The notes beneath the pieces were generated by a model, which made no database searches, was not told the DNA's origin, and worked only from the letters and a program-made list of their open reading frames with translations. A stretch of DNA of 64,000 bases from Druceiella hillmani (taxonomy: Eukaryota > Arthropoda > Insecta > Lepidoptera > Hepialidae), in assembly GCA_039881145.1 (NCBI GenBank), contig JAYKKI010000064.1, positions 3,488,501 to 3,552,500 on the forward strand, written 5' to 3'. The position numbers and the translations under genes are program-made. Below are positions 2,019 to 62,651 of this stretch, in pieces. Numbering within the stretch: position 1 is the stretch's first letter; every line of letters begins with the position of its first letter.

Positions 2019-3603
2019 CTAAAGTAATTTTATTTTTATTAGAAAATTTATGTTATCTAAGGTAAAAATAATGTTTGACTTTGGTCTTGATATAAACAAT
2101 GTTGCTTTGCTTACTTTACTTGTTTTATTTTCTGTAGGTGTATATTTGAACCTAAGCATGAATTTAAAACAAATCAGCTCATAGTAAATTTATTTATAAT
2201 TAAAAAGCTATTATGAGCGTTTTTAAAACAAATTATTTTAAAATAGAGAACTATTTTCATATATTTCTTAATCTTAATACGAAAAATAAATTATCAAAAC
2301 TTTGCACGAACAATTAACGTCATATTTATTTAATTTTTGTTATATTTGAGTTAATTTATTCCTAAAATTCTTAAGCCAGGTTAACAACAATGATACAGCA
2401 ACATTCAGTTCTACCTTTTTACCAAAAGAGTACACAACCAGGACGTAAGGATATTTACTTCCAACTTCTTTACTCCACATATATTTATAAATAATTTCTC
2501 ACTCGAGGCCATCTTTTTTGAGTGATTTCTCAGGCTTTCCAGGTTTTCATGATATCTTATATTTCTAGCAAACAATATTAATGAGTACGTGCATAATATA
2601 AAGTATTTTCTTTCACATTTCCTCTATACGAATGGAGAAACTAAACTATCGCACAAAGATCAAAATATAATATTGGAAAAATTGTGACTAAAGAAAAGCA
2701 GTAACTGGTCCAAATATCATTTTACGCCATTTAAAAGTTCATTTTCATTAAGTGAACCGACATTCATATCTGACTTTATGACTCATTTACCTTTATAAAT
2801 TCTCGCCAACTTGACACTTAGTAGGTTTTCCTGCTTTAATATATTTCTGGTAAATTATATTAAGAGAACTTAGATTATATAGAATAATTGTTTTGAAATG
2901 ACTATGCGACTGGAAAAAAACAATATATCGAAACAAGGTCAGTATATAACATTGCAAAAAATTTTCCAAAGAAAAATGGTAACAAGCCCAAATTTTTGGC
3001 TTTTCAGAAATATAATTATTTTACCATCAGTTATTTTAAAAATTTTAATATATCCAACCAGTACAGCAAGTGACAACAAGGATAAAGTTATGATACTTAA
3101 TCAGAAAAAAACTAGCATCGTTATTTTATATGGTCATTATTACCTTTTCAGACATACCCCATTAAATATCTGGTCAATATTTTTATTAACTTTTACCTTA
3201 GTTTATATCAAAACATACAGACGATATATACTTTTCTGCCACAATTTCACATTTCTGCAAAGTATATTAATCCAATATTTTGGCATTTACTTCTTCAGCA
3301 TCCAAGGTCCATCATATTTCATTAACGTTACTAAAAATTATCTTTTCAAAGGATTTCTCCTCCATAAATAATTATTCAAAGGATTTCTCCTTGTTACGTA
3401 AAAGAATAAACTTATTCACCTAAATTACCTTCAAATTGGTTTTGCAGTCTTCACTAATACCAAGCAACACTTCCAGTATGTCAATTAACCAACGAGGACT
3501 TTCACACATTTTTTTAAAGTTTGCTCAATTACACATTTGTATCAATACTACGTACTTGTTACTTACATTTAGAGGAAGTAAAGTATTTATTCTGTATACT
3601 CAC
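2019..3603 (-). other. Intron 3 of the chitin-binding gene
   Basis: This interval lies between donor GTGAGT (starting at 3603) and acceptor AG (2020-2019). It is AT-rich. A 157-codon reading frame at 2898-3371 on the plus strand has no recognisable domain and its composition matches the surrounding non-coding DNA, so I do not call it a gene. Confidence 0.8.
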
Positions 3604-3906
3604 ACCCAAATCTGCATTGAAGTATTTGCCATCGCTACACTCGTTCAAAACTAGAACACCAGAAGTGCAGACGTAGAATAAGGAACAGTTCCATGCGTGT
3701 GGCTTCGTCTGAAATACCGATCCATCGACGAGGCATTCCGGATCCGGATCGGTTTCAGGTTCTTCAGGCTCCTCTGTCACAGCGGGTGGTGGCGCTTCGG
3801 TCGTTGTTGTTGTCGTTGTTGTAGTTGTCGTCGTTGTGGTAGTTGTTGTCGTAGTGCTAGTTGATGAAGTAATGGTGCAACCGGCTCTCTCCGGAAAGTC
3901 GCATGC
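3604..3906 (-). CDS. Chitin-binding (peritrophin-A/CBM14) protein, exon with Thr-rich linker and domain 3 (exon C)
   Basis: This internal exon is 303 bp (101 codons), phase 0 at both ends, with acceptor AG at 3908-3907 and a strong donor GTGAGT beginning at 3603. It begins ACDFPERAGC, giving Cys5 and Cys6 of domain 2. A run of almost uninterrupted threonines follows, encoded by mixed ACA/ACT/ACG/ACC codons, then an acidic Pro/Glu/Asp stretch (about residues 40-56). The third CBM14 domain follows (EC...NC...FYVC...NEC). The Thr run is a typical O-glycosylation, mucin-like linker, as seen in insect intestinal mucins and peritrophins, so secretion into the gut lumen or cuticle is a reasonable inference. 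Cys spacing (x15, x5, x9, then x12 and x7 across the splice) matches the family. The exon is clearly GC-richer than its flanks. Confidence 0.92.
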
Positions 3907-4581
3907 CTGTCATTATTTGTAAGCATACTTTTTAATTCAACGTTTTTAATTAAGTTAATGTTGACTTTATACATTTAATTATATATATGTTTATACACAC
4001 ACACACAGGCTAAATTTTTTCTTAAGATATTTTTTCATCGGACTGAGTTTTCCTTATTATTCTAAACGTAAAATATGTTTACTGAATTCGAAAAAACCCT
4101 ATCATTTTCGAGAAAACTCAACCTTCATATTCCAAAGAAAAAAATAAATTTTTGATCATAATATCACTTCAATACATTTATTAAATCGAATCCTACTTTA
4201 GCAAGAAAGAAAGTTTAAAACCTCAGTGAAAGCTATTTTCCAAAATTAAATACTATTAATGAGATCATCCATGATTTTAATTACACATTTTTATCCCTGT
4301 AGAGGAATATTGCAAGCAAACACACGTTAGGGTTATTAAAATATTGCAGTACTTATAATAAACTTAGCAGGTTAGTAAACACAAATACTATTTAATTTTT
4401 CACAATTAAATGGAACTACCTGATGCTTTACCATGACCTAGATTTCGTTGTATTACAACATCTTCAGGTGGGTAAATTGTACAGAACTTTACAAATATTT
4501 TAATAAAGTAAAATAAAATAAAAATAAAATTAAATAAAACTACGTGATGTAGTATTACTTCTACTTTCTTTAAATTCTTTA

Positions 4582-4622
4582 CCATGACCTAGGTTTCGTT
4601 GTATTACAATATCTTCAGGTGG
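4582..4622 (-). ncRNA. Hammerhead ribozyme core, type I, partly decayed
   Basis: On the minus strand the order is CCAC, CUGAAGA, a small stem-loop, GAAA, then CC-UA-GG closing on the cleavage triplet GUC. All catalytic core bases are present. Decay shows in stem II (AUUG opposite CAAC) and in the first stem-I pair, because AUGG rather than GUGG follows GUC. Confidence 0.6.
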
Positions 4623-4734
4623 CCTATTAGCAAAAAATTAATATATTTGGCGTTAATTTTGTAGAAATTCGTTATTCACAATTAAATGAAACTACGTGAT
4701 GTAGTATAGTAGCAAAGATATCTTTGCTAATAGC

Positions 4735-4775
4735 CCACCTGAAGATGTTGTAATACAACGAAACCTATGTCGTGG
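4735..4775 (+). ncRNA. Hammerhead ribozyme core, type I, stem III damaged
   Basis: CUGAAGA and CGAAA are intact, with stem II GUUG/CAAC and stem I CCAC/GUGG. An outer stem I is also possible: UCUUU just upstream pairs with AAAGA downstream. Stem III, already only three pairs in this family, reads ACC-UA-UGU and so loses one pair. Cleavage in isolation is doubtful. Confidence 0.55.
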
Positions 4776-4896
4776 TAAAGAACTTAAAGAAAGTAGAAAT
4801 AATACTACATCACGTAGTTTCATTTAATTGTGAACATCGTGAGTTTATATTATTTTCTCTCATAAATAAAATACTCGACACCTGTGAGAAGTTGCC

Positions 4897-9581: not shown

Positions 9582-10105
9582 AGTGGATTGAATTGATAGT
9601 GGAATGAATTGATAGTGGATTGAAAACGTGCAGATAACCTTCGAAAAATAGAACTAATGAGCATGTATTGAACTATGTCAAATGATAACTTCGATAGGTT
9701 AACCAAACTTCACTTGCCACAGGATTTTAAGTGCCTGTCTTGAAAAAGACCGTACCTAAAAGCGAGATACATAAGCAATGGGGTCAAGAGATCCTTAGTA
9801 AAAGAAACCTGGCCTTTTCGTATTTTATTGTTCTCTCAATCAGCGTACCATAAATCAACTTTTACACATTAATAATATTGAGTCAACTTGTGTAAAAATA
9901 TTTGCTTGAATCAAGAAAAGTTCAGAGTAATAATAATTATTTCCAATCACCATTTTTTGTTTGAATTTTTCACATTATTACCTTTGTTTCGTCAGAATAA
10001 AAAAAATTTCGATTCAATCTTTTTTTCTATAATAAATTTCGTCATAATTTTATTCCTGAAATCGTAAAATTAATATAGATTCATTATTATAATTACGTTA
10101 CAATT

Positions 10106-10220
10106 CACAATTAAATGAAACTACGTGATGCAGTATTATTTCTACTATATTTAAGTTCTTTACGACGACCTAGGTTTCGTTGTATTACAACATCTTCAGG
10201 TGGGATATTAGCAAAGAATA
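10106..10220 (-). repeat. Hammerhead-bearing element, single arm
   Basis: One arm of the family, from 'cacaattaaatgaaactacg' to 'gggatattagcaaaga'. The second, head-to-head arm is absent. Confidence 0.8.
10163..10203 (-). ncRNA. Hammerhead ribozyme core, type I, weak stem I
   Basis: All conserved core bases are present on the minus strand (CUGAAGA, CGAAA, GUC), with stem II GUUG/CAAC and stem III ACC/GGU. The sequence after the cleavage site is GUCG rather than GUGG, so the inner stem I has only two consecutive pairs before a C-C mismatch. Confidence 0.65.
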
Positions 10221-10689
10221 ACTCTTAGGAACATCCAACAGCATTTATATGTTTCAAACACACTAGCGGAAGCCGGGTCTGTGTGGGTTTTCCCACTGCT
10301 TGTATTAGTGAGTTTATTGTAGGGGAGCGGTGTAGGTTTTATTATATTTCCGAGAGTTATACGATATACCAGTATTTTAGTGAGGATAATAAGTTCAATT
10401 GTTGTTATTATATGAGGTTATACAATACAAATGTTCCGATGTATGTAATAAAATTAAATGGAAGTTATTATCGGTAATATATTTATACAAAAGCAAGGGC
10501 ATCTGAAAGTTAGAACTAGGTTAAACCACTAATTCTACACATCTCCAGTTTTATTTATTCATATATTTATTTCTTTATTTATTTATATATTTATTTTTTT
10601 TATATTTTTCAATATAATTACGTTAATTACATTAGTGGTATTGATATATAGTATAAACAAAGTTAAAAAAATGGTTTTGAAGTCCCAAT

Positions 10690-12339: not shown

Positions 12340-12965
12340 TAAATAGAAATTTTTGAGTGGGTGTGTAATAGAATTTCTTTTTAAATTAGTTTTAAATTCG
12401 TATAACAACAAATAAGTGCAGTAGAATCCCTTTTTAAATTCGTCTAAGGAAACAATACGTGTAATATAATTTCTGTTTAAATTAGTTTTAAATTCGTATA
12501 ACATCAAATAAGTGCAGTAGAATCCCTTTTTAAATTCGTCTAAGGAAAAATACGTGTAATAGAATTTCTTTTTAAATTAGTTTTAAATTCGTATAACAAC
12601 AAATAAGTGCAGTAGAATCCCTTTTTAAATTCGTCTAAGGAAAAATACGTGTAATAGAATTTCTTTTTAAATTAGTTTTAAATTCGTATAACAACAAATA
12701 AGTGCAGTAGAATCCCTTTTTAAATTTGTCTAAGGAAAAAATACGTGTAATAGAATTTCTTTTTAAATTAGTTTTAAATTCGTATAACATCAAATAAATG
12801 CAGTAGAGTCCCTTTTTAAATTCGTCTAAGGAAAAATACGTGTAATAGAATTTCTTTTTAAATTAGTTTTAAATTCGTATAACAACAAATAAGTGCAGTA
12901 GAATCCCTTTTTAAATTCGCCTAAGGAAAAACACGTGTAATAGAATTTCTTTTTAAATTCGTATT
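12340..12965. repeat. 95/96-bp satellite, about 6.5 copies
   Basis: 'gtgtaatagaatttcttttt' recurs at 12363, about 12459, 12554, 12649, 12745, 12840 and 12935. Each unit is itself two related halves of about 48 bp (gaatttctttttaaatt / gaatccctttttaaatt), so the array evolved by doubling. Confidence 0.9.
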
Positions 12966-13649
12966 TAAACAACTAAGTGTAATGGAAAGACTTTTTAAAT
13001 TTATATATAGGATTGGGATATTGAAAATTCATTTTTAATAATTGAAATTCTCTCAAACATTTTCAAATATTTAATATAATAAACATAGTGGAAAGTAGAG
13101 ACGGACCATTAAGGCCAGATGCCTTAACCATTATAGATACAGGAAAAGGGTTTTAGAAGACTGTCCATGAATTTTTAATATATTTCAACTGGCACTCTAA
13201 AGCAACTGAACAATTTTTATCGTTTCAAAATAAACTTCTAACAAGTGTAATTGTTTTAGATTTGAGAATATTTTGATTTAAAATCTTGCTAAAGCAATAA
13301 TCGAACCGAGTGCTTTTCACAACAAACAAAATAAATCTGTTCGAAATTTAAAGCTATATATTATTTTAAAATAATTAGACTGATAAATTTTATGTCTAGT
13401 GGTCAGTTTCTTTTTCCAATATTAGAATTATCAATTTTGTATTAAAATGTTCGATAAATATTTGTTTGCGAATACTGAGACTGTTAGTACTCTTATCTAA
13501 GTTGGTCCCTAAAAGGCTTATCATCCCTAGAAGAAACAGGATTGAATGGCATAGAAAAGAAGTTTTGTGAAAATTACTGTTTATCTTATTGACTTTCTCT
13601 TTTTTTAACATGATTTTATTAATTTCACTTGTATGGATTTATATATATA

Positions 13650-27339: not shown

Positions 27340-29560
27340 TATGGTATCATGTATACCTCACTGGGATGAATTCTATCATATTTGCCAAAGTGGGAAGACC
27401 TTTATAATTAATGGTTTCTCATCAAGCGAATACAAATCAAAGTCTGACGTACCACGAGATTCCCACCTCGGACTACACTTATTCGACACTTTTTATAAAC
27501 GACTTAAAAACAAAAAACATTTATATGCTAAATATTTTATGTTCTCAATTTTAAATTTACAAACGTATAAAAAATGATCTATATATTGCACAATAACAAA
27601 AAGATCTCATCATCCTGTAGGTATGATGTTCCAGGAAAAGAATATATACTTAAATCCTAATAAATTTGCCACAAGACTTCCAATTCGAATCACAAGTATT
27701 AGGCATTTTTATAAACGATGTAAGCAAGAAACTATTACACGCTAAACATCTGAAGTAAGCAGAATTTTTTTTAATTTACATATCCTTAGAAAACGGTCTG
27801 GATATTGCACAACAGCAAAAAGATCTCGTCATCCTTTCGACATGATGTTCCAGGGTTAAAATACACCTAAACCCTAATTAAGGCACTACAATAATCCCTT
27901 CTTGGACCACTATTAGTCAGCATTTTTATGAACGACTTAAGCAAGAAACTGTTACACGCTAAATATCTTAAGTACGCAGACATTTTTTTAATTTACAGAA
28001 TTTTATAGAACTACCTGGATATTGCACAACAGCAAAAAGATCTTGTCATCCTTTCAATATATGTTCCAGGGTTAAAATACACCTAAACTCTAATTAAGGC
28101 ACCACAAGGATCCCTCCTTGGACCACTATTAATCAACATTTTATGAAAGACTTAAGCAAGAAACTGTTACACGCTAAACGTCTTAAGTACGTAGACAATT
28201 TTTTAATTTACAGAATCTTAGAAAACTACTTGGATATTGCACAACAGCAAAAAGATCTCGTCATCCTTTCGATATATATTCCAGGGTTAAAATACACCTA
28301 AACCCTAATTAAGGCACCACAAGAATCCCTCCTTGGACCACTATTAGTCAGCATTTTTATAAACGACTTAAGCAAGAAACTGTTACACGCTAAACATCTT
28401 AAGTACGCAGACAATTTTTTAATTTACAGAATTTTAGAGAACTACCTGGATATTGCACAACAGCAAAAAGATCTTGTCATCCTTTCAATATATGTTCCAG
28501 GGTTAAAATACACCTAAACTCTAATTAAGGCACCACAATAATCCCTCCTTGGACCACTATTAGTCAGCATTTTTATGAACGACTTAGGCAAGAAACTGTT
28601 ACACGCTAAACATCTTAAGTACGCAGACAATTTTTTAATTTACAGAATTTTAGAGAACTACCTGGATATTGCACAACAGCAAAAAGATCTTATCATCCTT
28701 TCAATATAGGTTCCAGGGTTAAAATACACCTAAACTCTAATTAAGGCACCACAAGGATCCCTCCTTGGACCACTATTAGTCAACATTTTATGAAAGACTT
28801 AAGCAAGAAACTGTTACACGCTAAACGTCTTAAGTACGCAGACAATTTTTTAATTTACAGAATCTTAGAAAACTACTTGGATATTGCACAATAGCAAAAA
28901 GATCTCGTCATCCTTTCGATATATATTCCAGGGTTAAAATACACCTAAACCCTAATTAAGGCACCACAAGAATCCCTCCTTGGACCACTATTAGTCAGCA
29001 TTTTTATGAACGACTTAGTCAAGAAACTGTTACACCCTAAACATTTTAAATTCGCAGATATTTTTATAATTCACAAAATCATAGAAAACGATCCAGATAT
29101 TGCACAACAACAAAAAGATGTCGGCATCCTTTCAGTATAATGTTCCAGGGATAAATTACACCTAAATCCTAATTATGGTAGACAAGACTCCTACCTCGGT
29201 TCATTATTATCTGACATTTGTAAGACGACTTAAGCAGCAAACTGTTACACGTTAAACATCTTAAGTTCGCAGACAATTTTACAATTTACGAAATCATTAA
29301 AATGATTTGGATATTGCACAACAATAAAAGGATCTTTTTATTCTCTCGGTATAATGTTTCAGGGATAAATTACACCTAAACCCTAATTATGGTAGACAAG
29401 ACTCCCACCTCGGGCCACTATTGTCCGGCATTTTTAAGACGATTTAAGCAAGAAACTATAACACGTGAACGTGAAATATATTGAGTTCGCATGCAATTTT
29501 AAAATTTAAAAATCATAAAAAATAATGTGGATATTTTGAATAAATTTGAACTCTATAAAT
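27340..29560 (+). repeat. Satellite of about 216-bp units derived from a jockey-like reverse transcriptase
   Basis: 'gatattgcacaacagcaaaa' recurs at about 27586, 27804, 28021, 28236, 28452, 28668, 28882, 29099 and 29312 (213-218 bp steps). Translated on the plus strand, each unit reads APQGSLLGPLLV, then IFMNDLSKKLL, then LKYADNFLIYRIL and DIAQQQKDL. This is the conserved block B/C order of non-LTR reverse transcriptases (PQGS.LGP, INDL, YADD). The second catalytic Asp is Asn (YADN) and stops occur in every unit, so nothing is translated. The first, most diverged unit (27341-27577) keeps more flanking sequence (NGFSSSEY, then VPRDSHLGLHLF), again as in jockey-clade proteins. Units at 28021 and 28236 match those at 28668 and 28882 best, giving a trimeric higher-order repeat of about 647 bp. 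Confidence 0.85.
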
Positions 29561-32384: not shown

Positions 32385-33110
32385 GATGAGTAGCAAATAG
32401 GCTACTGTTAGATATGTCGCATATTTGTTACTTTAAGATATGTCGCGGTCATGTCAATGAGAGTTAGATGTTACTCTAAGATATATCACAGAAATATTAC
32501 TATGGGATATGCTTCAGATATGTTACTATCACATGTGTGAGATATGGCTCAGATATGTTACTATCACATGTGTGAGATATGGCTCAGATATGTTACTATC
32601 ACATGTGTGAGATATGGCTCAGATATGTTACTATCACATGTGTGAGATATGGTTCAGATATGTTACTATCACATGTATGAGATATGGCTCAGATATGTTA
32701 CTATCACATGTGTGAGATATGGTTCACATATGTTACTATCACATGTGTGAGATATGGCTCAGATATGTTACTATCACATGTGTGAGATATGGTTCAGATA
32801 TGTTACTATCACATGTGTGAGATATGGCTCAGATATGTTACTATCACATGTGTGAGATATGCCGTAGATATGTTACGGCTCAGATATGTTACTATCACAT
32901 GTATGAGATATGGCTCAGATATGTTACTATCACATGTGTGAGATATGGTTCAGATATATTACTATCACATATGTAAGATATGGCTCAGATATGTTACTAT
33001 CACATGTGTGAGATATACCGCAGATATGTCACAATCGCAAATATGACAGTATCAGATATCTCGCAGATATATTTTGCTGACAAAAAATTTGCAGATACGT
33101 TACTTTCTAT
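32385..33110. repeat. 35-bp tandem array, about 15 regular copies with degenerate edges
   Basis: 'gatatggctcagatatgtta' followed by 'ctatcacatgtgtga' repeats every 35 bp from about 32500 to 33015. Each unit carries the palindrome CACATGTG, an E-box. Half-units (gatatgtcgcagatatgtt) extend on both sides, showing that the array began from a shorter motif. Confidence 0.95.
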
Positions 33111-35490: not shown

Positions 35491-35492
35491 GT

Positions 35493-35758
35493 CACAATTA
35501 AATGAAACTGCATGATGTAGTATTATTTTTACTCTTTTTTAGTTCTTTACCACGACCTAGGTTTTGTTGTATTACAAGATCTTCAGGTGGGATATTAGCA
35601 AAGATTCCAATCGGATCTTTGCACCTGAAGATGTTGTAATACAACGAAACCTAGGTCGTGGTAAAGAACTAAAAGAAAGTAGAAATAATACTACATCACG
35701 TAGTTTCATTTAATTGTCAATAATGAATTTCTACAAAATTAACGCCAAATATATTCAA
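35493..35758. repeat. Hammerhead-bearing element with two head-to-head arms
   Basis: The left arm (35493-35600) and right arm (35615-35758) are near mirror images meeting at 'agcaaagattcc...ggatctttgc'. The left core (35550-35590, minus) reads CAAAA where CGAAA is required, losing the catalytic G12. The right core is intact. Confidence 0.85.
35621..35661 (+). ncRNA. Hammerhead ribozyme, type I, intact core
   Basis: Self-cleaving RNA motif, predicted to cut after GUC at about 35656. In order: stem-I strand GCAC, CUGAAGA, U, GUUG-UAAUA-CAAC (stem II), GAAA, CC-UA-GG (three-pair stem III counting A-U), UC, and stem-I strand GUGG. Just outside, UCUUU (35616-35620) pairs with AAAGA (35663-35667), giving a nearly continuous outer stem I. 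Every universally conserved core base is present. Very short stem III is the form known from Penelope-like elements and other retroelements, which tend to work as dimers. Confidence 0.8.
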
Positions 35759-36289
35759 TCTTATAATGTAATTACAAAAGTGAAAACTTGACAAAGTGAA
35801 GAGTTAAATCTGATTTGGGAATCTTCAAAAAGATTAAACTTCCGTTAACATAGCCATTGTACGCTGAAAATCAAACTTCACTTAGACGAAACAAGAGGTG
35901 ACCAAAACTTCAGTTAATAGTATGCAATAAATAACATTAATCGTAAATGTTTCAGTAGAATACATTCCCTAAATCGTCTTCAACATATTATCCCACCAAG
36001 AACTAAAATTCACCTGTGTCAAACCCTCTTCTGCCTTTACTTGTCTATGAAGATGTATGCTATCTGAATCTTAGGGCTCGCTAAATCATAGAGGGTTGCT
36101 TAAATAAATAAGAATGACTTCGAAATTTGCGCATTTTCTACATAAGGCCACATGAGGCCATTTGCTCACGTTTGTGATCGCAGAACCGAGCGGAACTGAA
36201 TAGAAATTTGCCGCCGGTGCGGTTAGTACATTTTCTACCTTTTATATACCTCGCAGATGGGATAAGTAGAAACGATATATGATGGAAGA

Positions 36290-41513: not shown

Positions 41514-42540
41514 TAATAGTAATTAATTCCTTCGTTATACCAAATTTATGAATGGTGTAAGTATTTTTTACTAATTCCTTCGTTATACCAAATTTATGAA
41601 TGGTGTAAATATTTTTTACTAATGCCTTCGTTATACCAAATTTATGAATGGTGTAAGTATTTTTTACAAATTTATGAATGGTGTAAGTATTTTTTACTAA
41701 TTCCTTCGTTATACCCAATTTATGAATGGTGTAAGTATTTTTTACTAATTCCTTCGTTATACCAAATTTATGAATGGTGTAAGTATTTTTTACTAATGCC
41801 TTCGTTATACCAAATTTATGAATGGTGTAAGTATTTTTTACTAATGCCTTCGTTATACCAAATTTATGAATGGTGTAAGTATTTTTAACAAATTTATGAA
41901 TGGTGTAAGTATTTTTTACTAATTCCTTCGTTAAACCCAATTTATGAATGGTGTAAGTATTTTTTACTAATTCCTTCGTTATACCAAATTTATGAATGGT
42001 GTAAGTATTTTTTACTAATGCCTTCGTTATACCAAATTTATGAATGGTGTAAGTATTTTTTACTAATGCCTTCGTTATACCAAATTTATGAATGGTGTAA
42101 GTATTTTTTACAAATTTATGAATGGTGTAAGTATTTTTTACTAATTCCTTCGTTATACCAAATTTATGAATGGTGTAAGTATTTTTTACTAATGCCTTCG
42201 TTATACCAAATTTATGAATGGTGTAAGTATTTTTTACTAATGCCTTCGTTATACCAAATTTATGAATGATGTAAGTATTTTTTACAAATTTATGAATGGT
42301 GTAAGTATTTTTTACTAATTCCTTCGTTATACCAAATTTATGAATGGTGTAAGTATTTTTTACTAATGCCTTCGTTATACCAAATTTATGAATGGTGTAA
42401 GTATTTTTTACTAATGCCTTCGTTATACCAAATTTATGAATGGTGTAAGTATTTTTTACTAATGCCTTCGTTATACCAAATTTATGAATGGTGTAAGTAT
42501 TTTTTACAAATTTATGAATGGTGTAAGTATTTTTTACTAG
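41514..42540. repeat. 48-bp satellite with 30-bp short units, about 22 units
   Basis: The 48-bp unit 'ttcgttataccaaatttatg' plus 'aatggtgtaagtatttttta' alternates with a 30-bp deletion form. Order is not random: one 30-bp unit followed by three or four 48-bp units, with 'aatgcc' and 'aattcc' variants in fixed order, repeats about four times as a higher-order unit of 174-222 bp. Because both lengths are multiples of three and the unit lacks stops, a 367-codon frame (41488-42591, minus) and plus-strand frames remain open throughout. The translations are simple repeats (VKNTYTIHKFGITKAL on the minus strand). I regard the frames as a by-product. Confidence 0.93.
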
Positions 42541-60998: not shown

Positions 60999-61527
60999 AT
61001 ACAGCCCAGAATCATTTTAATTTACAAACCAACTCTGCTACAATTATTAGCATAGTACATTTTCTTAGACCTATTTACAAAACGCCGCAACTCGAGAACG
61101 GATATTTACTAGTCGTAAATTAAGTAATACACACATAGAGTTTTCGTGTGTTAGTGCGTAACAAATATACAAGTCCATGCGACTTATCTTGAACACTTAC
61201 ATTATATCGTAACTAAAATGAAAACACTCGTTTTTTGTTTTTTTTTATAACCAGTTTTCTTTATTTTTTAAATTAAAATTACATCGATGTAATAATAACA
61301 ATATTACATTTCTTAGTCAGTATTTCTTGCCCTGTCTTTCAATCTAAGCCCATCATACTCCTCTTAGCTATCCTCTAGAATGTCTGCACTTATTGAATTA
61401 TTTCCTTAATTAATTGAACCTATATCTGCCAACCATATAATAGAGTAGATATAACGATTATGTCAAGTACCTTTTTTGAAATCCTCGTTTTGGACTATAA
61501 ATATGTGTTTTTATTGTCAATAAATAT

Positions 61528-61720
61528 TGAATATATTTGGTGTTATTTTGTAGAAATTCATTATTCACTATTAAATGAAAGTACGTGATGTAGCATTATT
61601 TCTGCTTTCTTTAAGTTAAGGTTGGCTGAAGACGTTGTAATACAACGAAACCTAGTTCATGGTAAAGAACAAAGAAAGTAGAAATATTACTACATCACGT
61701 AGTTGTATATCATTGTAATA
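61528..61720. repeat. Hammerhead-bearing element, internally deleted
   Basis: The left outer arm (61528-61620) joins directly to a right arm (61621-61720). The core at 61622-61662 (plus) keeps CUGAAGA and CGAAA but has GUUC in place of GGUC and no inner stem I, so it is probably inactive. Confidence 0.8.
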
Positions 61721-62140: not shown

Positions 62141-62322
62141 AAAAATGTGCAAAATGATGCAACAAGAATCGACAGGATGAATTTTCTCACTACACATATA
62201 TTTTGCGTGTAGTGACTGATGCTATATTCGTGATAGTAATTGAAATCCATGTAATAAAAACATTTATTACTTATGTGAATATTCGTAATTGAAATAGTTC
62301 TTATAAGCTTTTTAAAATAAAT

Positions 62323-62597
62323 TTTACGTAATATAGTACTATTTCTACTTTCTTTAATTTCTTTACCACGACCTAGGTTTCGTTGTATTACAACATCTTC
62401 AGGTGGGCTATTAGCAAAGATTTATCATTGCTAATATGAAGAGACATCTTTGCTAATAGCTCACTTGAAGATGTTGAAATACAACGAAACCTAGGTCGCG
62501 GTAATGAACTTAAATAAAGTAGAAATAATACTACATCATGTAGTTTCATTTAATTGTGAATAATGAATTTCTACAAAATTAACACCAAATACATTCA
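62323..62597. repeat. Hammerhead-bearing element with two head-to-head arms
   Basis: The most complete copy: a left arm with an intact minus-strand core (62366-62406), a centre 'gctattagcaaagat...atctttgctaatagc', and a right arm with a plus-strand core (62461-62501). The right core reads UUGAAGA where CUGAAGA is required and so has lost catalytic C3. The right arm continues to 'aaatacattcaat'. Confidence 0.88.
62366..62406 (-). ncRNA. Hammerhead ribozyme, type I, intact core
   Basis: The best copy in the window. Minus-strand order: CCAC (stem I), CUGAAGA, U, GUUG-UAAUA-CAAC (stem II with 5-nt loop), GAAA, CC-UA-GG (minimal stem III), UC as the end of the GUC cleavage triplet, then GUGG (stem I, four perfect pairs). 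An outer stem I forms between UCUUU, nine bases upstream of CCAC, and AAAGA, one base downstream of GUGG. This leaves an asymmetric internal loop (GCUAAUAGC opposite U) facing the stem II loop, the arrangement that supports tertiary contacts in fast natural hammerheads. All universally conserved bases are present. Confidence 0.85.
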
Positions 62598-62651
62598 ATA
62601 ATAAATTACTATAAATTAAATTAATAAATTACTATAAATTTTTAGCATATA

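Follow-up and report, generated by a model that had tools for sequence, protein, structure and literature searches.

What kind of element carries the hammerhead-like motif at positions 62366-62402 (-) of the window, by which we mean the whole 64-kb stretch of DNA analysed here? A sequence-only reading had answered that the motif marks separate short non-autonomous elements, processed by self-cleavage and perhaps mobilised by a Penelope-like partner. Its observation that the motif is repeated proved correct: fuzzy matching locates nine copies across the window, of which four are on the (+) strand and five on the (-) strand. A regular expression (CTGANGA, GAAA, a later U[ACU] and at least three stem II pairs, directly or with one base skipped) returned eight rows. 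Six are family motifs (+ 4739, 35625 and 61626; - 62402, 10199 and 4467), all of which match solely with one base skipped before stem II; the remaining two (- 54716 and - 9995) are AT-rich matches that are unrelated to the repeat family. Three of the nine copies are damaged, namely those starting at 62465 (+), 35586 (-) and 4618 (-).

The repeat unit itself appears to consist of the pseudo-LTR (pLTR) and the beginning of the ORF of a Penelope-like element (PLE) that is abundant and apparently young; four of the six elements in the window are head-to-head pairs of pLTR arms. The first of these dimers, at 62325-62600, has a (-) arm (62421-62325, arm positions 1-97) whose outer end is lost and a (+) arm (62446-62600, positions 1-155) with a tail. 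Its (-) motif (62366-62402) keeps every invariant core letter and has an extra U before stem II. The exact stretch named by the sequence-only reading, 62366-62406 (-), is what the Rfam type I model (RF00163) aligns in a short-stretch scan, at 14.6 bits against a cut-off of 34. In the partner arm the motif (62465-62501, +) has C3 changed to U. The dimer at 35492-35762 joins a short arm (outer end 114) to a long arm (157) and has a 12-bp target-site duplication, ATCTTATAATGT, with copies ending at 35492 and starting at 35758. Its (+) motif at 35625-35661 has intact core letters, as had been claimed for this copy and for that at 62366, and lies within the best Rfam hammerhead match of all, HH9 on 35611-35678 (18.2 bits, cut-off 52, in scans of shorter stretches); its (-) motif at 35550-35586 has G12 changed to A and an altered stem II. 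In the pair at 61520-61720 the (-) arm stops at position 62, and the (+) arm carries a motif (61626-61662) with C replacing the extra U. The composite dimer at 4528-4834 consists of a (-) arm (4634-4528), an extra (-) piece (4707-4633, positions 83-158) and a (+) arm (4720-4834), with motifs at 4618-4582 (-), where stem II is broken, and at 4739-4775 (+). Target duplications were looked for and not found at 62325-62600, 61520-61720 and 4528-4834.

The two other elements are not pairs. At 4392-4472 (-) there are pLTR pieces (arm positions 15-61 and 89-122) with a motif at 4467-4431. At 10103-10602 (-) lies a 5'-truncated PLE copy, in which about 355 bp of the PLE 3' region are followed by a pLTR that has no tail and contains the motif at 10163-10199 (-). 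This copy is 83% identical over 467 bp to the endonuclease remnant L032 described below, has TATAAA at -31, and is bounded by a 13-bp target-site duplication, TATAATTACGTTA, with copies ending at 10100 and starting at 10613.

Several other features share the window. Long and seemingly unrelated tandem arrays occupy 41524-42512 (48/222 bp units), 32506-33036 (35 bp units), 12363-12969 (95/191 bp units) and 483-1498 (73 bp units). A tandem array at 27703-29465 has about 8 copies of a 216-bp unit and a frame GSLLGPLLVSIFMNDL..KYADNFLIYR with stop codons; we take the frame to resemble a LINE-type reverse transcriptase fragment, and the array to be a satellite made of this reverse transcriptase piece. 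At 3559-3909 (-) the window encodes a threonine-rich linker and a chitin-binding Peritrophin-A domain (PF01607, E 2e-07), a domain that would suit a host of arthropod type.

The sequence-only reading had suggested a genome-wide search for the repeat consensus and for a linked Penelope-type reverse transcriptase, and both exist. In the genome (2.586 Gb, 181 contigs, about 30% G+C) there are 81,312 occurrences of the 37-mer motif when two or fewer mismatches are allowed, and 43,068 of the exact 26-mer core; the reversed controls gave 0 in each case, so that the abundance is far beyond chance. Among 100 listed exact motifs, 22 form 11 head-to-head pairs within 200 bp, one same-strand pair lies 121 bp apart and tail-to-tail pairs are absent; this tally, made by eye, needs both motifs to be exact and misses changed partners, hence it does not give a genome-wide dimer share.

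The linked reverse transcriptase belongs to an RVT_1/GIY-YIG family, and the Penelope connection is stronger than had been guessed, since the unit is apparently part of the PLE itself. A search of the genome with the GIY-YIG family gave two matches. L032 is a PLE-type endonuclease remnant, with GIY-YIG above cut-off, that the arm flanks on both sides, direct and with tail downstream (E 9e-57) and inverted upstream (E 1e-41); a target duplication was sought there and not found. The second match, L031 1489-1698 (-), has no flanking pLTR and may, we presume, be a cellular SLX1-type gene. A protein search with the L032 endonuclease produced one fragment, P0001, 50% identical to it, and this distant relative, used as query in turn, uncovered the PLE family: the 150 that were scored, out of 5645 candidates, all match, with open frames of 181-841 aa. 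Twenty GIY-YIG loci were fetched from these 150, and in every one of them the arm lies downstream of the endonuclease, at 96-100% identity in 19 and at 91% in one. We call the family young because the stretches that PLE loci share with L089 are about 94-99% identical. RVT_1 is above cut-off in both frames scanned, those of L089 and L099 (E 7e-14 and 1e-15), and GIY-YIG, with 21.3 and 19.3 bits, narrowly misses its cut-off of 22.6; in the L089 frame YVDD and then SIPYIGNVSLKLGKLL...KSGIYKLKCNDCNSVYIGQTGR (KSGIYKLKC..YIGQTGR) are visible.

The arrangement of these copies defines the unit further. Neighbours within 8 kb among the 150 PLE matches are head to head in 41 cases, tandem in five (3095-3121 bp apart) and tail to tail in none. 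In the tandem copy L106 the PLE 3' region is followed by the pLTR arm and then by an ATG at arm position 118 that opens the next ORF. Positions 1-117 of the unit are therefore leader, with the motif at 20-56, and the tail, to about position 158, corresponds to roughly the first 13 codons of the ORF. Of 26 PLE-linked arms, 24 have a TATAAA exactly at -31 relative to arm position 1, and of 66 arms from dimer loci none has it (both counts leave out arms with an inner end above 3); dimers lack it because the other arm begins at that place. A single ORF with reverse transcriptase and GIY-YIG endonuclease linked to the repeat, tandem pLTRs, inverted pLTRs with one tail and short target-site duplications are all features of PLE membership that were found here. 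In one cluster, at C117:5167147-5175695, a head-to-head pair is extended on its (+) side: after the (+) copy come another two in the same orientation, spaced at 3104 bp, and each of these two has an open frame of 810 aa.

Is the motif in this leader a hammerhead? The part of the earlier claim that concerns the core letters stands, and the outer stem I that it described is supported; it had not counted an extra base, and Rfam scores fall below cut-off. Between CUGAAGA and stem II all nine window copies have one additional base (U, once C). In an alignment of 77 arms, from which arms not covering positions 20-60 were left out, 75 have it (U in 74, C in one) and two have a gap, meaning that stem II does not close directly on A9/G12. 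Two placements of the extra U are conceivable, opposite C at 10.1-11.1 or paired to G12, which PMC6155905 names as the general base. A literature search on the 10.1-11.1 pair found no paper. The 43,068 exact copies of the motif carry the U, and the version that lacks the extra base occurs just 16 times; hence the U belongs to the amplified family and is not a product of decay.

The covariance-model search that the sequence-only reading had proposed, and whose failure it had itself counted against a hammerhead, gave no match above threshold in any scan. No hammerhead appeared among the 20 Rfam matches in the whole 64-kb window at E up to 10, or in a scan of the 241-base stretch 62320-62560; HH9 reached 15 bits, below cut-off, in two of 13 whole elements scanned, and the intact tandem junction of L106 had no hammerhead match at E up to 10. 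On dimers the highest-ranking Rfam matches came from models of miRNA precursors of plants and animals; none reached its cut-off, and we reject them as annotation because any long hairpin would give them. In five of nine folded stretches the lowest-energy fold pairs ACCU with AGGU in place of stem III, and single-arm folding gives no strong signal (z 0.05 to -2.5 in eight of nine stretches, -3.7 for 61600-61690). Among 17 whole elements, 16 fold to hairpins with energies between -126 and -206 kcal/mol, and the shortened one at 61520 reaches -54; such predicted folds would bury the motif. Across the arms, 55 stem changes disrupt a pair and 22 preserve it, and of two double changes one restores pairing; there is no covariation support for the stems in this alignment, which has little power since the copies are close and decaying. 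We do not claim membership of the type I hammerheads because direct closure of stem II and the gathering threshold both fail. The motif may still work like one, and the extra U together with the sub-threshold scores would argue for a weak or protein-dependent ribozyme.

This leads to one of the alternatives, which is compatible with the reading we favour: the motif might be an active self-cleaving ribozyme that serves the PLE life cycle, for instance in processing tandem transcripts, and tolerates the extra U. In its favour are the invariant core letters, intact in 60 of 77 arms, the slightly better conservation of core columns in the 77-arm alignment (mean identity 0.978, remaining columns 0.959), and the identity of the motif letters in most young PLE copies, the amplified family having the U. 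In a lizard PLE the hammerhead depends on the protein of the element for cleavage (PMC11167929). Against activity stand a best Rfam score that is far short of its cut-off, the unmatched L106 junction, the competing ACCU/AGGU pairing, and a balance of broken over kept pairs that is as in decaying copies. Taking both sides together, activity is a genuine possibility to which we give somewhat less than even weight.

Whatever the motif does, the dimers need an explanation. We searched the genome with the unit 62366-62560, took loci for the best 30 of 80 scored matches, whose alignment shows the inverted pair, and mapped a 160-nt arm sequence on 28 of them (L001, which is the window, and L010, the same element as L004, being duplicates). 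The sample is biased, having been drawn by similarity to one window dimer, and the arm probe, built from the same loci, ends at position 160, so that longer arms would be invisible. In the typical dimer one arm runs from position 1 to about 157 and the other from 1 to about 115. The 31 genomic dimers counted measure 281-326 bp (one 236), with centres of 11-57 nt; 26 combine long and short arms, three long and middle, one long and long, and one short and short. Target duplications of 9-15 bp, mostly 12, flank 21 of the 31 (0 of 300 random flank pairs) and were looked for and not found at the other ten; dimers with inner ends above 7 were left out of these counts and of the junction count.

A wider set, of 87 arms, was drawn from the 28 dimer-search loci, L032, the first 20 random stretches and the window itself. 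Of the outer ends 34 lie at 112-120 and 40 at 153-160 (74/87 in all). Inner ends lie at positions 1-7 in 74 of the 87, and 13 begin elsewhere; the 30 arms that the query had no part in selecting divide into 18 with a start at 1-7 and 12 with a start elsewhere. Of 33 junctions no two are alike (0 of 528 pairs similar). Arms of the same dimer share 39 variants, where shuffling gives a mean of 13.9 and a maximum of 24 in 2000, and they share 11 rare variants (shuffled mean 1.4, maximum 7), in a test of 35 pairs that left out dimers with inner ends above 45. The shared variants and the unlike junctions together suggest that every dimer arose independently, from a single source molecule or from molecules closely related to each other, although variant sharing could also reflect gene conversion. 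A random sample gave the repeat in four of 40 3-kb stretches: full dimers in L033 and L080, an arm with a 27-nt stub in L081, and an edge-cut element in L084. Target duplications there measure 13 bp at L080 and 12 bp with a mismatch at L033, and L081 has none; the centre of the L080 dimer is 4 nt.

Our preferred reading, held with a probability of nearly nine in ten, joins the PLE origin of the unit to a mechanism: the dimers would be by-products of reverse transcription that begins close to the 5' end of the PLE RNA, and the motif would ride along. The PLE RNA would start at position 1 of the arm, since the TATAAA at -31 in PLE copies makes the inner end of the arm the expected transcription start. 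We infer this start from the TATAAA spacing and the arm ends; dimers, by construction, cannot show a TATAAA at -31. The PLE protein would cut both target strands, and reverse transcription would set in at an internal position of the RNA, for which there are two choices some 42 nt apart. If the sites beside the RNA 5' end are used, each cDNA, running to the end of the RNA, will be merely 115-157 nt long. Two such cDNAs would then be joined head to head, whether both are copied from one RNA or the second arises when the first snaps back, and the product would be a promoterless palindrome, a dead end. The hammerhead-like motif would probably act, if at all, on tandem PLE transcripts, helped by the PLE protein.

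A lizard PLE offers a parallel. Its protein cuts and extends both strands, starting inside the RNA at two sites that bound the tail (PMC11167929), and by analogy the outer ends of our dimers seem to match those two internal start sites. Hammerhead mutants of the lizard element still insert, and cleavage needs the protein (PMC11167929). In our data no arm starts at the cleavage site, and insertion templates were therefore apparently uncut. An inner end at the site (52/53) occurs in 0 of 87 arms; the closest is in L025, where a match of 74% identity begins at 56. Of eight arms picked solely by sequence 3' of the site (eight of 39 other places, judged by eye), none starts at the site, one rearranged copy ends about 5 nt from it and one ends near position 23. 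Uncut templates would agree with the normal insertion of the lizard mutants.

Within this reading we favour priming at both start sites beside the RNA 5' end, followed by run-off and joining of the cDNAs. In its full form the proposal is that the pLTR-only dimers, thousands to tens of thousands of them, record two-sided internal priming, one strand at about 157 and the other at about 115 on the same RNA, both running to the 5' end; for this we would give a little under even odds. One finding sits awkwardly with it: the lizard PLE shows no start-site difference between strands (PMC11167929), yet a long arm with a short arm is the rule here. If two-sided priming is correct, the dimers form a large natural data set of PLE integration products, initiation beside the RNA 5' end is a main outcome of the PLE, the one-sided tail is explained, and a hammerhead with an unusual extra base has no part in making templates.

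A serious rival, which keeps the PLE origin and overlaps with our model, needs one priming and one template. The first cDNA, begun at the 157 site, would fold back at the RNA 5' end and copy itself to about 115. Self-priming has been proposed for rotifer PLEs, and PMC3846280 ascribes their head-to-head junctions to it. Snap-back would account for the private variants shared by arms of one dimer, for the 4-nt centre of L080, and for the several long PLE pairs with equal open-frame lengths (e.g. 399/399, 551/551, 602/602). Other long PLE pairs, however, have unequal frames; centres usually span 11-57 nt, often with extra arm pieces; and a second start site accounts for the end of the short arm near 115 more simply than a halt in copying would. 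For these reasons we regard snap-back as unlikely, if the most serious competitor for the origin of the dimers.

Far less probable is the possibility that the repeats are short non-autonomous retrozyme-like elements, self-cut to unit-length and possibly circular RNA that a PLE puts back into the genome. Such elements would be consistent with a hammerhead-like core that has stems I and II and with the co-occurrence of the repeats with PLEs, and metazoan retrozymes are described in such terms in PMC7229834. But arms run across the cleavage site instead of starting there, even when they are chosen by the sequence 3' of it; all junctions differ; the dimers lack TATAAA; Rfam stays below cut-off in every scan; and the units are inverted, not head to tail. 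The earlier claim of separate elements processed by self-cleavage is not supported, given the absent TATAAA, the unlike junctions and the places where the arms start. Least probable of all, at the very edge of what we would entertain, is a foldback or MITE-type DNA transposon with long terminal inverted repeats and a chance hammerhead-like motif: the long near-perfect inverted repeats, strong folding and very high copy number would suit one, but the repeat belongs to an RT/GIY-YIG element, the arms mostly differ by about 42 nt, target duplications vary in length, and longer PLE pieces take the same head-to-head form.

PLE hammerheads and inverted pLTRs are already known; what stands out here is the scale, the regular pairing of long with short arms and the promoterless class. 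The way PLEs insert and the origin of their head-to-head palindromes are unsettled, and further experiments have been called for (PMC11167929 and PMC3846280); the role of PLE hammerheads is called a mystery in PMC7761336. With an apparently young PLE that has long open frames, and with 81,312 near-copies of the motif, start sites, junction types and any ribozyme footprint become countable. There is also a warning: hammerhead-like repeats spotted by eye can be PLE by-products and not self-processing elements.

How does the family compare with known systems? HH9 (RF02275) is the best-scoring Rfam hammerhead model, on 35611-35678, but the score stays far from the gathering score of 52, and the extra helix II junction base is shown as an insertion. 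Metazoan retrozymes are likewise short type I hammerhead repeats in very many copies (up to 120,000 in axolotl, according to PMC7229834); as described there, they are tandem repeats whose RNA is cut at the ribozyme, whereas the units here are inverted, apparently uncut, promoterless and part of a PLE. Minimal type I PLE hammerheads resemble ours in their minimal stem III, their dispersal in thousands and their mapping to PLE pLTRs, as described in PMC7761336 and PMC6155905. Judged by these descriptions, they may differ from the family here in its extra base before stem II.

The closest relatives are the Penelope/Poseidon-type PLEs. They too have one ORF with RT and GIY-YIG, tandem and head-to-head arrangements, a pLTR that reaches into the ORF start, a tail of about 30-40 bp that one of the inverted pLTRs may carry, short target duplications and a hammerhead motif near the ORF start; for rotifer PLEs, PMC3846280 gives inverted pLTRs with a 31-bp tail on one, head-to-head palindromes and duplications of 8-10 bp. 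A limited literature search on non-autonomous PLEs with a pLTR found no report of pLTR-only dimers. In contrast to those elements, pLTR-only head-to-head pairs are common here (4/6 elements in the window, 2/3 uncut elements in the random sample), and the tail begins at about the ATG of the ORF. The cleavage site of the motif, accordingly placed in the leader, lies about 65 nt upstream of that ATG, whereas in the lizard PLE it lies 26 bp inside the ORF.
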